A stretch of 64,000 nucleotides of DNA from Oscillospiraceae bacterium (GTDB taxonomy: Bacteria; Bacillota; Clostridia; Oscillospirales; Ruminococcaceae), in contig JAIHAL010000001.1 of assembly GCA_020054675.1 (NCBI GenBank), forward strand, positions 186,001 through 250,000, read 5' to 3'. Made by a program: the position numbers and the translations under genes. Below the pieces are notes generated by a model that worked only from the letters and a program-made list of their open reading frames with translations, was not told where the DNA came from and searched no databases. Positions 29,589 through 47,787 of the stretch are shown here, one piece after another. The number at the start of each line of letters is the position of its first letter. Positions within the stretch are counted from its first letter, which is position 1.

Positions 29589-29766
29589 AATCTGATTTCT
29601 GCATAATACACCTGGAATGAACCAAGCAGATTAAAAGAGAATCCCTAAAATTTTGTGTAAATCTGAAATAAACTGATTTATCCGAATAGTACATAATATT
29701 TATTGATTTGTGTAAATTGAATATTATTTTGAGATTTTAGGAAAATAAATTTTATGTAAAAGGGTG

Positions 29767-29795
29767 TTGATATTTAAGCGCAAATAGGTTAAAAT
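29767..29795 (+). promoter_or_regulatory. Promoter of the purine operon
   Basis: TTGATA, 17-base spacer, TAAAAT; a second perfect TATAAT lies at 29795-29800 without a good -35. Transcription from here would give a leader of about 220 bases before purE. The preceding stretch 29589-29766 is AT-rich and shows no gene. Confidence 0.6.
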
Positions 29796-29884
29796 ATAAT
29801 TGGTATTTTTATTGAATGTGCTATAAAGCTTTGAAAGGCATGGGTATAATTGTTATGATTCGGTCTTTTATATATGTTTTAAAA

Positions 29885-30008
29885 GGCATCATATCCTGTT
29901 TATGCTTTAATGCCATAGCTGCAAGCAAAGGACATTTTGCGCTTAAAATTAAGAATAATTGTAAGTTGTTAGCTGTAACTTGGGAAAGTTGCAGCTAAAT
30001 TTATTTTT
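29885..30008 (+). promoter_or_regulatory. Purine operon leader with terminator and competing antiterminator arm
   Basis: A 13-base-pair hairpin (TTAGCTGTAACTT 29969-29981 with AAGTTGCAGCTAA 29986-29998) followed by ATTTATTTTT ends 14 bases before purE. Upstream, TAGCTGCAA (29916-29924) is perfectly complementary to TTGCAGCTA (29989-29997) inside the terminator's 3' arm, so the two structures exclude each other. A GGCAT/ATGCC helix (29885-29889 with 29910-29914) sits just before the antiterminator arm. This is the layout of a riboswitch or attenuator. I do not recognise a known class. Confidence 0.65.
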
Positions 30009-30021
30009 AGGGGGGATTTTA

Positions 30022-30528
30022 ATGAAAAAAGTTGCTATCGTAACGGAAGGCGGCAGTGATTTTTCAACAGTAAAAGAAACGGCAGCAGAGCTTGAAAAAT
30101 TTGGTATACCTTATGAGGTGCATGTTATGTCCGCACACAGAACTCCCGGACTTGCTGCTGAATTTTCTAAAAATGCTGCTGAAAATGGATTTGGGGTTAT
30201 TATTTCCGCATCTGAAAAAATAGCATTCCTTGCATGCGAAATTGCCTCAAATACGATTTTGCCTGTGATAGGAATTCCTGTGAAATCTTTAGCGCTTGAC
30301 GGGCTTGATGCTTTGCTTTCAACAGTGCAAATGCCAAGAGGAGTGCCTGTTGCATCTGTTGCTATAAACGGTGGAGTTAATGCTGCCATACTTGCTGCTC
30401 AAATTCTTGCTTTAAGTGATAAGGAACTGGATAAAAAGCTTTGCGAAATGAAAGAAGAAATGGCTGCCGGAGTAATTAAAAAGGACGAAAAACTTCAAGA
30501 AGAAGTAAAAAATATATTTAAAAATTAA
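30022..30528 (+). CDS. purE: PurE-like 5-(carboxyamino)imidazole ribonucleotide mutase, divergent
   Basis: 168 residues. ATG 30022 is chosen for the AGGGGGGA site upstream. It follows PurE along its length: [13 protein letters not shown] in place of the usual GSxSD loop, [51 protein letters not shown]. The highly conserved class I stretch AGAGGAAHLPG is replaced by [11 protein letters not shown], losing its His. The normal enzyme moves the carboxylate of N5-CAIR to C4 to form CAIR. Leading the purine operon supports that role, but altered chemistry or substrate is possible. No purK is present in the window. Confidence 0.85.
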
Positions 30529-33824: not shown

Positions 33825-34463
33825 ATGAAAAATATAGTAGTTTTGGTATCCGGCGGAGGGACTAATTTGCAGGCGCTTATTGATACGCAAAACCGCGGAG
33901 AAATAAAAAACGGCAGGATAACCTGCGTAATTTCTTCAAAGCCTGACGCTTATGCGCTTAAAAGAGCTGAAAATAACGGGATTCCGACAAGAATTATACC
34001 AAGGAAAGAATATCCGGATGCGCTTTCTTACAGCAAAAAGCTGCTTGAAGCCTTAAATGAGGAAAAGGCGGATTTGATTGTGCTTGCCGGATTTATGACG
34101 ATACTTGATGAAATAGTTACGAAGGCATATCAGTATAGGATTATAAATGTCCATCCTTCTTTAATTCCCGCATTTTGCGGAAAGGGTTATTATGGACTTA
34201 AAGTGCATGAGGCAGTGCTGGAATACGGCGTAAAGCTTACAGGCGCAACGGTGCATTTTGTGAATGAGGAGGCTGATGCCGGAGCAATTATACTTCAAGG
34301 GGCTGTTCCCGTGGAAAACGAAGATACTCCAGAAATCCTGCAAAAGCGCGTTATGGAACAGGTTGAATGGAAACTGCTGCCCAAGGCGGTTGCGCTTTTC
34401 TGCGAAAATAAAATTGAAATAAGAAATAATAAAGCATATGTGAAAACGGAGGAAAAACAATGA
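33825..34463 (+). CDS. purN: Phosphoribosylglycinamide formyltransferase
   Basis: 212 residues. N-terminal phosphate loop VLVSGGGTNLQALID. The active-site region is IINVHPSLIPAFCGKGYYG with catalytic Asn-His, and TGATVHFVNEEADAGAIILQ holds the catalytic Asp. Transfers a formyl group from 10-formyl-THF to GAR. Its end overlaps the next gene by four bases (ATGA). Confidence 0.96.
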   Translation: MKNIVVLVSGGGTNLQALIDTQNRGEIKNGRITCVISSKPDAYALKRAENNGIPTRIIPRKEYPDALSYSKKLLEALNEEKADLIVLAGFMTILDEIVTKAYQYRIINVHPSLIPAFCGKGYYGLKVHEAVLEYGVKLTGATVHFVNEEADAGAIILQGAVPVENEDTPEILQKRVMEQVEWKLLPKAVALFCENKIEIRNNKAYVKTEEKQ

Positions 34464-35173
34464 GTCCAGTTTCAATTTCCGAGGCTTTAAAAAGCAATTC
34501 ATATCCCGGCAGAGGGATTATAATCGGCAAATCCGGCGATGGGAAATATGCCGTATCCGCTTATTTTATAATGGGCAGAAGTGAAAACAGCCGCAACCGC
34601 GTTTTTGTTGAAGACGGAAGAGGAATAAGGACAGAGGCTTTTGACCCGTCAAAGCTTGTTGACCCAAGCCTTATCATTTATGCTCCGGTAAGGGTTTTTG
34701 AAAATAAAACAATAGTTACAAACGGCGACCAAACCGATACCGTTTACGATTTCTTAAATGCAGGAAAGAGCTTTGAGGATGCTTTGCGCGCAAGGGAATT
34801 TGAGCCTGATGCACCTAATTTCACCCCAAGAATTTCAGGGATGATTGAGCTTAAAAACGGCGGATTTTCTTATAAGCTTTCAATACTCAAAAGTGCAAAT
34901 GGAAATAATTCATCATGCGAAAGATTTTTTTATGAATATGAAAACCCAATCTGCGGTGAAGGAAGACTTATTCATACTTACAAGCATGATGGGAATCCTA
35001 TTCCATCCTTTGAGGGGGAACCAAGAGCGGTAAAGCTTGATAAGGATATTGATGCTTTTGCAAAAGAGCTTTGGGAAAGCCTTGATTCGGAAAATAAGGT
35101 TTCGCTTTTTGTAAGGTATATTTGCCTTGAAACAAACAAGGAAGAAACAAGAATAATAAATAAGAATGTGTGA
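34460..35173 (+). CDS. IMP cyclohydrolase, PurO-like (stand-alone)
   Basis: 237 residues, a member of the archaeal-type IMP cyclohydrolase family by its opening SNSYPGRGIIIGKSGDGKYA and the YFIMGRSENSRNRVF segment. Family role: closes the ring of FAICAR to IMP, the last step of IMP synthesis. Its position directly before a stand-alone AICAR formyltransferase shows how this organism replaces bifunctional PurH. It overlaps purN by four bases and precedes the formyltransferase by nine bases. The name purO is used in archaea; I leave the symbol open. Confidence 0.88.
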   Translation: MSPVSISEALKSNSYPGRGIIIGKSGDGKYAVSAYFIMGRSENSRNRVFVEDGRGIRTEAFDPSKLVDPSLIIYAPVRVFENKTIVTNGDQTDTVYDFLNAGKSFEDALRAREFEPDAPNFTPRISGMIELKNGGFSYKLSILKSANGNNSSCERFFYEYENPICGEGRLIHTYKHDGNPIPSFEGEPRAVKLDKDIDAFAKELWESLDSENKVSLFVRYICLETNKEETRIINKNV

Positions 35174-35182
35174 GGAGTTAAT

Positions 35183-36358
35183 ATGTCAAAGGAATTTGCT
35201 TTAAAGTACGGCTGCAATCCTAATCAGATGCCTGCAAGGATTTATTTGGAAAATAGGGAGCTCCCCATAGAGATACTCAACGGCAAGCCGGGATATATAA
35301 ATTTTATGGATGCTTTGAACGGCTGGCAACTTGTAAAGGAATTAAAGGAGGCAACCGGACTTCCGGCGGCGGCTTCTTTTAAGCATGTTTCTCCTGCCGG
35401 AGCAGCAGTTGGAGTGCCTCTTGACGAAACTTTGAAAAAGGTTTATTTTGTTGACGATTTGGAACTCTCACCGCTTGCCTGCGCTTATGCAAGGGCAAGA
35501 GGCGCAGACAGGATGTCCTCATATGGCGATTTTATTTCACTTTCCGATATATGCGACAAGCAGACTGCCATTATGATTTCAAGGGAGGTTTCAGATGGAA
35601 TAATAGCTCCGGGCTATACGGATGAAGCGCTTGAAATCTTAAAGAAAAAACGCAAGGGAAATTACAATATAATAAAAATTGATGAAAACTATGTTCCGGA
35701 GCCGATAGAGAGAAGACAAATTTTTGGAATTACCTTTGAACAGGGCAGAAACAATATAAAATTTGACGATTCAGCTTTTGAAAATATTGTAACCGAAAAT
35801 AAAAATCTTCCCGACAGTGCAAAAAGGGATTTGCTTATTTCGCTTATAACACTTAAATATACTCAATCCAACAGTGTTTGCTATGCCAAGGATGGACAGG
35901 CAATAGGCATAGGTGCAGGACAGCAGTCAAGGATACACTGTACAAGGCTTGCCGGAAACAAAGCGGATATTTGGTGGCTCAGACAGCATGAAAAGGTTTT
36001 GAATTTGCAGTTTGTCGACAATATAGGCCGCCCGGACAGGGACAATGCAATAGATATATACTTGTCTGATGATTATATGGATGTTCTTGCAGACGGGGAA
36101 TGGCAAAGGATATTTAAAGTGAAGCCTGAAATTTTTACAAAGGAAGAAAAAACGGAATGGCTTAAAAAGCTTACCGGAGTATCTCTCGGTTCGGATGCAT
36201 TCTTCCCGTTTGGCGACAACATAGAACGTGCACATAAGTCCGGAGTATGCTATATTGCTGAGCCGGGCGGTTCAATCCGTGATGACCATGTAATTGAAAC
36301 CTGCAACAAATACAATATGGTAATGGTGTTTAACGGAATAAGGCTTTTCCACCATTGA
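35183..36358 (+). CDS. AICAR formyltransferase, stand-alone (PurH C-terminal domain type)
   Basis: 391 residues that correspond only to the transformylase part of PurH: KYGCNPNQMPA start, AAASFKHVSPAGAAVG (the KHxxPAG motif with catalytic Lys-His), TLKYTQSNSVCYAKDGQAIGIGAGQQSRIHC and DAFFPFGDNI near the end. No IMP cyclohydrolase domain precedes it; that activity is supplied by the previous gene. It forms FAICAR from AICAR and 10-formyl-THF. Confidence 0.93.
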   Translation: MSKEFALKYGCNPNQMPARIYLENRELPIEILNGKPGYINFMDALNGWQLVKELKEATGLPAAASFKHVSPAGAAVGVPLDETLKKVYFVDDLELSPLACAYARARGADRMSSYGDFISLSDICDKQTAIMISREVSDGIIAPGYTDEALEILKKKRKGNYNIIKIDENYVPEPIERRQIFGITFEQGRNNIKFDDSAFENIVTENKNLPDSAKRDLLISLITLKYTQSNSVCYAKDGQAIGIGAGQQSRIHCTRLAGNKADIWWLRQHEKVLNLQFVDNIGRPDRDNAIDIYLSDDYMDVLADGEWQRIFKVKPEIFTKEEKTEWLKKLTGVSLGSDAFFPFGDNIERAHKSGVCYIAEPGGSIRDDHVIETCNKYNMVMVFNGIRLFHH

Positions 36359-47534: not shown

Positions 47535-47787
47535 ATTTTAAAAGCTGAGATGGGAACAAGTAACAAGTATTTTAAAATCTTCAGAGAACCTTTGGCTGGT
47601 GTGAAAAGGTGATTTTGTGCTTGCGAATACATCCCGGAGCTTGCGGCTTGAAATTTTTTCAGTAGAGCCGTACGGTTGCGCCCGTTAAAGCGTTCAATGA
47701 GGTCCGAAAAAGAAAATTTTTCGGATAAATTGAGGTGGTACCACGGAATTATTTTCGTCCTCTGGCATTTTTGCCGGAGGATTTTTT
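47535..47787 (+). ncRNA. T-box riboswitch with Tyr specifier
   Basis: Complete T-box leader. Stem I carries the typical AGAGAACCTTTGGCTGG and GTGAAAAGG segments, with the specifier codon TAC (Tyr) at 47628-47630 in GCGAATACATCC. The T-box core AATTGAGGTGGTACCACGG lies at 47728-47746. The terminator is TCCTCTGGC/GCCGGAGGA (47758-47781) with a T6 tract. Uncharged tRNA-Tyr would pair with the specifier and T-box, favouring the antiterminator and so tyrS expression. Confidence 0.93.

Follow-up and report, generated by a model that had tools for sequence, protein, structure and literature searches.

Pause-like motifs and leader reading frames ending at the terminator upstream of purE in Oscillospirales suggest an attenuator of the pyrBI type

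The closest described system is the pyrBI (pyrL) attenuator of Escherichia coli, where a leader ORF overlaps an intrinsic terminator, polymerase pausing depends on the end product of the pathway and the proximity of the ribosome prevents termination (PMC3641672, PMC5021804, PMC4824070). The mgtM leader of Salmonella, upstream of mgtCBR, reads ATP through polymerase pausing at adenines within a short ORF that encodes an unconserved peptide (PMC3641672). In E. coli, pauses matching the consensus G-10 Y-1 R+1 are found within the translated his and leu leaders, upstream of their terminators (PMC9291695). For RNA polymerase in general, an extended elemental-pause consensus, G-11G-10T-3G-2Y-1G+1 (PMC6062546), and a short one, G-10 Y-1 G+1 (PMC12288461, PMC4496710, PMC9291695), have been reported. 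Control by a polymerase waiting for a nucleotide while a ribosome translates a leader ORF is known for pyrimidine genes and, as far as we found, appears to be new for purine genes: the open-access literature searched yielded pyrBI, mgtM and amino-acid leaders, but no purine operon under the joint control of pausing and a leader ORF.

The leader analyzed here precedes the pur operon in a stretch of 64,000 nucleotides (the window), from the 2.28-Mb draft genome (G000) of an Oscillospiraceae bacterium. On balance, it seems to be a transcription attenuator of the pyrBI type, reading the supply of purine nucleotides, most likely ATP. As at pyrBI, a leader ORF (uORF) runs into or through an intrinsic terminator located before a nucleotide-synthesis operon, and in a congener it reaches the start of purE; unlike pyrBI, a Gram-negative system in which UTP is sensed over a uridine-rich stretch, the operon is here a purine one, the candidate pauses are discrete consensus matches with A at +1 and, within the order, the uORF stop mostly falls at the 5' arm of the terminator. 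The unconserved uORF peptide and the proposed sensing of ATP through adenines are shared with mgtM; that system, however, features an A-stretch, does not serve purine synthesis and is turned on by high ATP via alternative stem-loops, whereas here elemental pauses with A+1 precede a purine-synthesis operon, which low ATP is proposed to activate. Consensus pause sequences within a leader ORF, upstream of a terminator, are also a feature of the his and leu leaders, which differ in that the +1 base is G, the pause is a synchronising one, charged tRNA is the signal and alternative hairpins decide the outcome. In other Clostridia the position before purE can be taken, within the same pathway, by ZMP/ZTP (RF01750) or purine (RF00167) riboswitches, which are folded aptamers.

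All features of the locus lie on the forward strand. The promoter of the pur operon (29767..29795) consists of TTGATA at 29767, a 17-nt spacer and TAAAAT at 29790-29795, with 10 of 12 matches to the consensus, and both hexamers are unchanged in the congener L039 (genome G001, same genus). The range proposed in the earlier note, from 29767, takes in the promoter, and transcription probably starts near 29802; a leader of about 165 nt separates promoter and terminator. The operon, purE-purC-purF-purM-purN-(split purH)-purD, extends to 37657, its first gene purE (30022..30528) having its ATG at 30022; gene names were derived from translations and from PurE homology. The purH activities apparently reside on two separate genes, at 34460-35173 and 35183-36358 (34460-36358), judging from ORFs and operon context only, and a second PurE-like protein, 45% identical, is encoded elsewhere in the same genome (G000:C19:17413-17859).

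Further sequence elements were noticed around the promoter. A perfect 12-bp inverted repeat, TTTAAGCGCAAA / TTTGCGCTTAAA, is found at 29773-29784 and 29936-29947, with a one-base difference in L039; its 5' arm lies within the promoter spacer and is hence probably absent from the RNA. A second promoter-like sequence is located within the leader at 29831-29859 (TTGAAA, 17 nt, TATGAT, with TG in front) and, if used, would give transcripts from near 29866, devoid of the uORF starts. Upstream of the promoter, the repeats TTTGTGTAAAT / AAATTTTRTGTAAA occur at 29652-29662, 29707-29717, 29648-29661 and 29747-29760; they are partly kept in L039 and are possible regulator sites.

Between the promoter and purE, the first biosynthetic gene, lies an intrinsic terminator (29969..30008), formed by a 13-bp stem (29969-29981 / 29986-29998) which includes one G-T pair, a GGGA loop and a T-rich tail; the stem is followed by ATTTATTTTT, just upstream of the purE ribosome site. 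The terminator search detected one such site in the leader, 0.3 being expected, and confirmed the 13-bp hairpin with T tract described in the earlier note. Stem and loop are identical in L039. DNA searches for homologues of the leader detected only this congener among 397 genomes of the family; short leader-like matches at other loci (e.g. GCAAAGGACATTTTGC) fall within unrelated genes and look like chance. The leader is 93% identical between the window and L039, while the fourfold-degenerate sites of purE are 47% identical, those of purC 68%, and the PurE proteins 76%. The difference between leader and purE fourfold sites indicates that selection acts on nearly the entire leader. The reading, in the earlier note, of a purine-operon leader with an intrinsic terminator is upheld, and this regulatory element is strongly constrained. 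Such conservation goes beyond what attenuation needs, which hints at extra structure, and suggests an added constraint, perhaps the hairpin described below.

A genus-specific structured RNA, i.e. a new riboswitch contained in 29802-29960, sensing a purine-related ligand and controlling the terminator, would account for this conservation. The leader with its terminator folds better than shuffled sequences (MFE z = -4.4), and the predicted structure includes a long hairpin (29837..29914), closed by the helix GGCAT 29837-29841 / ATGCC 29910-29914, already recognized in the earlier note and present in the MFE fold. The hairpin is located within the uORF, upstream of the first pause-like site, and the same fold is predicted in L039, the comparison being between two species only; its z value of -3.7 (29836-29915) is biased, since the region was picked from the fold. 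Against such an RNA, the transcript deprived of the terminator (29802-29965) has a predicted fold no stabler than that of shuffled sequences (z = -0.07), the single congener found contains the only relative of the leader, and the leaders of the family feature a linear motif and a uORF, without a conserved fold. A comparison with Rfam 15 gave no match at gathering score for the leader, and nothing sensible at E<=10; in particular, the three-way junction aptamer of the purine riboswitch RF00167 was found neither in the leader nor in the whole genome G000, no ZMP/ZTP riboswitch RF01750 or T-box RF00230 was detected in the leader, and PRPP/ppGpp riboswitches (ykkC subtypes) were not found in the window when all Rfam 15 families were searched, always at gathering score. 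The impression, gained earlier from the letters, that the leader belongs to none of the purine, ZTP and PRPP riboswitch classes is therefore sustained as far as Rfam is concerned. On these grounds a genus-specific riboswitch is considered unlikely. The sole Rfam match in the window is a T-box leader (RF00230, 152.9 bits), located at 47538-47765.

Since the window leader could not be aligned beyond the genus, the analysis was extended to the purE upstream regions of 168 genomes, of which almost all belong to Oscillospirales and most to the family of the window. An intrinsic terminator scoring 17 or more was found in 126 of the 168 leaders, and 99 non-redundant leaders, selected for having a terminator, were used as the reference set. 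A uORF was accepted when preceded by a Shine-Dalgarno match of at least 5 bases, starting at ATG or GTG, at least 9 codons long and ending between -25 and +14 nt of the 5' arm of the terminator. By this definition 57 of the 99 leaders contain a uORF ending at the 5' arm, against 3.5 in shuffled sequences (maximum 8); the majority of stops fall between -2 and +8 nt of the arm, and the ribosome-binding site is clear in most family members. The encoded peptides share no sequence: a C-terminal likeness, G(I/V)S(V/A)SK, proved to be one of the three possible translations of the nucleotide motif described below, and a conserved peptide was rejected.

An unbiased EM search identified two motifs shared by the leaders of the order. 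The strongest is the promoter, TAaAATA; the other, t.acGGgataaGTGyA.cca, corresponds to the elemental-pause consensus at G-11 G-10 T-3 G-2 Y-1, but has A instead of G at +1. When the pattern GG-N6-TGY-X was counted in the 99 leaders, 64 occurrences with A at X were found against 7.4 expected, 22 against 7.5 with G, 10 against 5.8 with C and 5 against 8.2 with T, the expectations deriving from shuffles which keep only dinucleotides; the spacing between GG and TGY peaks exactly at 6. The pattern was found and counted in the same leaders, a circularity answered by held-out data: each random half of the leaders was used to train a model, which scored the opposite half far above shuffled sequences (P = 5e-17 and 9e-8). 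In the 166 unselected leaders the A+1 motif was seen 117 times, 21.8 being expected. The leaders share ancestry, though most come from different genera and cannot be aligned. A point against the pause reading is that, in 20 related pairs, the core pause positions show no significant excess of conservation over the remaining ones (75% vs 69%, P = 0.21).

The motif is present in 1 to 4 copies per leader, at a density of 5.5 per kb vs 0.75 in the downstream coding sequence. Most of its +1 positions lie between -80 and +20 of the terminator, and 46 of 65 fall within the uORF, where the three frames are used 48, 28 and 25 times, i.e. independently of frame. Outside a footprint of about 17 nt, roughly -13 to +4 relative to the TGY/A junction, it carries no information. 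No local helix was found around it, and a hairpin between its GG and CC ends was discarded, no covariation being observed. A DNA operator is also unlikely, because the enrichment concerns the sense strand only (64 vs 7.3 expected, against 5 vs 3.6 for the antisense strand). Strand specificity, multiple copies, independence of frame and frequent proximity to the terminator would also suit a motif recognized on the RNA by a protein acting as antiterminator or attenuator, with the uORF playing a secondary role. Against this, the motif agrees with the pause consensus at every strong position and with the exact spacing, its flanks and structure are not conserved, and the protein would make a uORF ending at the terminator unnecessary; we regard this explanation as quite improbable.

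The presence of a translated leader and a terminator also recalls amino-acid attenuation of the trp/his type, in which the ribosome would stall at codons for Gly, Gln or Asp, the purine precursors, and an alternative pairing would decide on termination; in E. coli, pause sites synchronise systems of this kind. The uORFs of the order show a mild excess of Gly, Ser and Cys codons, partly because the motif encodes them, which is a point to be set against the pyrBI-type reading. For Gly, 212 codons were seen against 154 expected (1.4-fold), an excess due in part to the GG of the motif, and no enrichment was found for Gln and Asp. Complementarity between upstream sequences and the 5' arm of the terminator is at chance in the 99 leaders (mean z -0.02), so that no pairing of the kind needed is found family-wide. 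Amino-acid attenuation is accordingly given hardly any credence.

The features of these leaders are specific. Upstream of purA, purB, guaB, pyrB and hisD, in the same family, the motif is not enriched and Shine-Dalgarno-led uORFs ending at terminators number 0-1; there is thus no G+1 counterpart for guaB, nor a U+1 elemental-pause counterpart for pyrB. In a set of 66 purE leaders from other orders of the class, the A+1 motif was seen 6 times against 7.9 expected, and the uORF-terminator arrangement is absent too. Outside the order, 11 of 40 scanned purE loci carry a riboswitch, of the ZMP/ZTP type in L429, L432, L440, L441, L442, L444, L454, L456 and L458, and of the purine type in L431 and L484, whereas a Rfam scan of 40 purE loci of the order gave no match, ZTP included. 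Only 6 of 41 relatives proved to have a purine riboswitch, and none was detected anywhere in G000. In Oscillospirales riboswitch control thus looks to have been replaced by another device. Such a device would explain why the purE leaders of the order escape Rfam-style searches: neither fold nor peptide is conserved, and what they have in common is a short linear motif and the geometry of their parts.

The pyrBI-type attenuation favored here would proceed as follows. RNA polymerase would transcribe a short leader gene and then an intrinsic terminator, meeting in the leader at least one elemental-pause sequence, at which the next nucleotide is A, or sometimes G. With ample ATP the pause would be quickly left, the polymerase would stay ahead of the ribosome, the terminator would fold and the pur operon would be off. 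With scarce ATP pausing would be prolonged, and the ribosome translating the uORF would catch up; standing at a stop codon located at or inside the terminator, it would cover the stem and allow readthrough, turning purine synthesis on. It is established in E. coli that a terminator is repressed when a ribosome occupies a stop codon less than about 27 nt away (PMC4824070). ATP is named as the probable signal because, contrary to the general consensus, A is preferred to G at +1; since G+1 is reported to matter more for pausing than any other base (PMC9291695), pauses with A+1 may be weak. For the order, the anatomy, made up of a uORF, a stop at the terminator, the A+1 motif and the restriction of these features to purE leaders, is well supported at the level of sequence; pausing at the motif sites, the blocking of the terminator by the ribosome and the translation of the window's own uORF are postulated. 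Bacillus subtilis is reported to have uncoupled transcription and translation, so that coupling in Oscillospirales is a supposition. The pyrBI-like explanation is held with higher confidence for the family than for the window leader. For Oscillospirales as a whole, we see about even chances that purine riboswitches of pur operons were exchanged for an ATP sensor devoid of an aptamer, with pauses re-tuned from G+1 to A+1 and read by the ribosome on the leader ORF.

The window agrees in part with this anatomy. Its uORF (29816..29998) has 60 codons from ATG 29816, 52 from ATG 29840 and 47 from ATG 29855, and its stop, TAA 29996-29998, lies inside the 3' arm of the terminator; the longest open frame is significant against shuffles (P = 0.026), and no good Shine-Dalgarno sequence precedes it in either the window or L039. 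In L039 the uORF stays open (69 codons, L039 1295-1504) and, owing to a 1-nt change in length, continues beyond the terminator until it overlaps the ATG of purE as ATGA, which suggests translational coupling. The pyrBI leader ORF of E. coli comparably comes close to overlapping the downstream start codon.

Two full pause-like sites are found in the window (P = 0.02), along with two partial ones with A+1, and all four are kept in L039. The first partial site, GCCATAGCTGC followed by A (29912..29923), has G-11, T-3, G-2 and C-1, with the incoming A+1 at 29923, and lacks G-10; its motif score of 13.9 compares with shuffled leaders reaching 12 in <1% of cases, and it is identical in L039. Also identical there is the full consensus site GGACATTTTGC followed by G (29930..29941), with G-11 G-10 T-3 G-2 C-1 and incoming G+1. 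At the other partial site, AGAATAATTGT followed by A (29952..29963), the -1 base is T in the window and C in L039, so that a pyrimidine is kept. The second full site, GGGAAAGTTGC followed by A (29982-29993), spans the terminator loop and 3' arm; the only full A+1 site of the window thus lies in the terminator, the best upstream sites having G+1 or being devoid of G-10.

The first partial site includes most of the nonamer TAGCTGCAA (29916-29924), which, as the earlier note had stated, is the exact complement of 29989-29997, TTGCAGCTA, in the 3' arm of the terminator. The nonamer was taken there as an antiterminator competing with the 5' arm for the 3' arm, and as part of a mutually exclusive terminator-antiterminator mechanism. 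The perfect 9-bp complementarity, the duplex energy of the nonamer with the 3' arm (z = -2.7 vs shuffled upstream sequence) and the persistence of the pairing in L039 speak for it. However, it is the 3' arm that the nonamer pairs with, not the 5' arm, and a distant strand would have to outcompete a hairpin with a 4-nt loop; moreover, complementarity to the 3' arm is near chance over the 99 leaders (mean z -0.23), the window being one of few outliers, so that conservation of the pairing holds in the congener and fails family-wide. The nonamer coincides with the pause motif, whose self-complementary TGCA core may be the source of its match to the 3' arm. As a mechanism, then, the antiterminator is very unlikely. 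The further suggestion of a degenerate ligand-sensing leader fits poorly with relatives showing a pause footprint and a terminator uORF, although a protein or a genus-specific aptamer may have a role in the window itself.

If the ATP-reading attenuation is correct, a substrate of the polymerase itself would control purine synthesis in a dominant order of gut and rumen bacteria, in place of any riboswitch or repressor, as a purine counterpart of pyrBI; the elemental-pause consensus would be re-tunable at a single base, +1, to choose the nucleotide sensed; and such leaders would make it testable whether ribosomes of Firmicutes keep up with the polymerase. As a separate observation, at two loci upstream of pyrB, L278 in G103 and L279 in G019, a uORF rich in pyrimidines extends into an intrinsic terminator, an arrangement that looks pyrBI-like.
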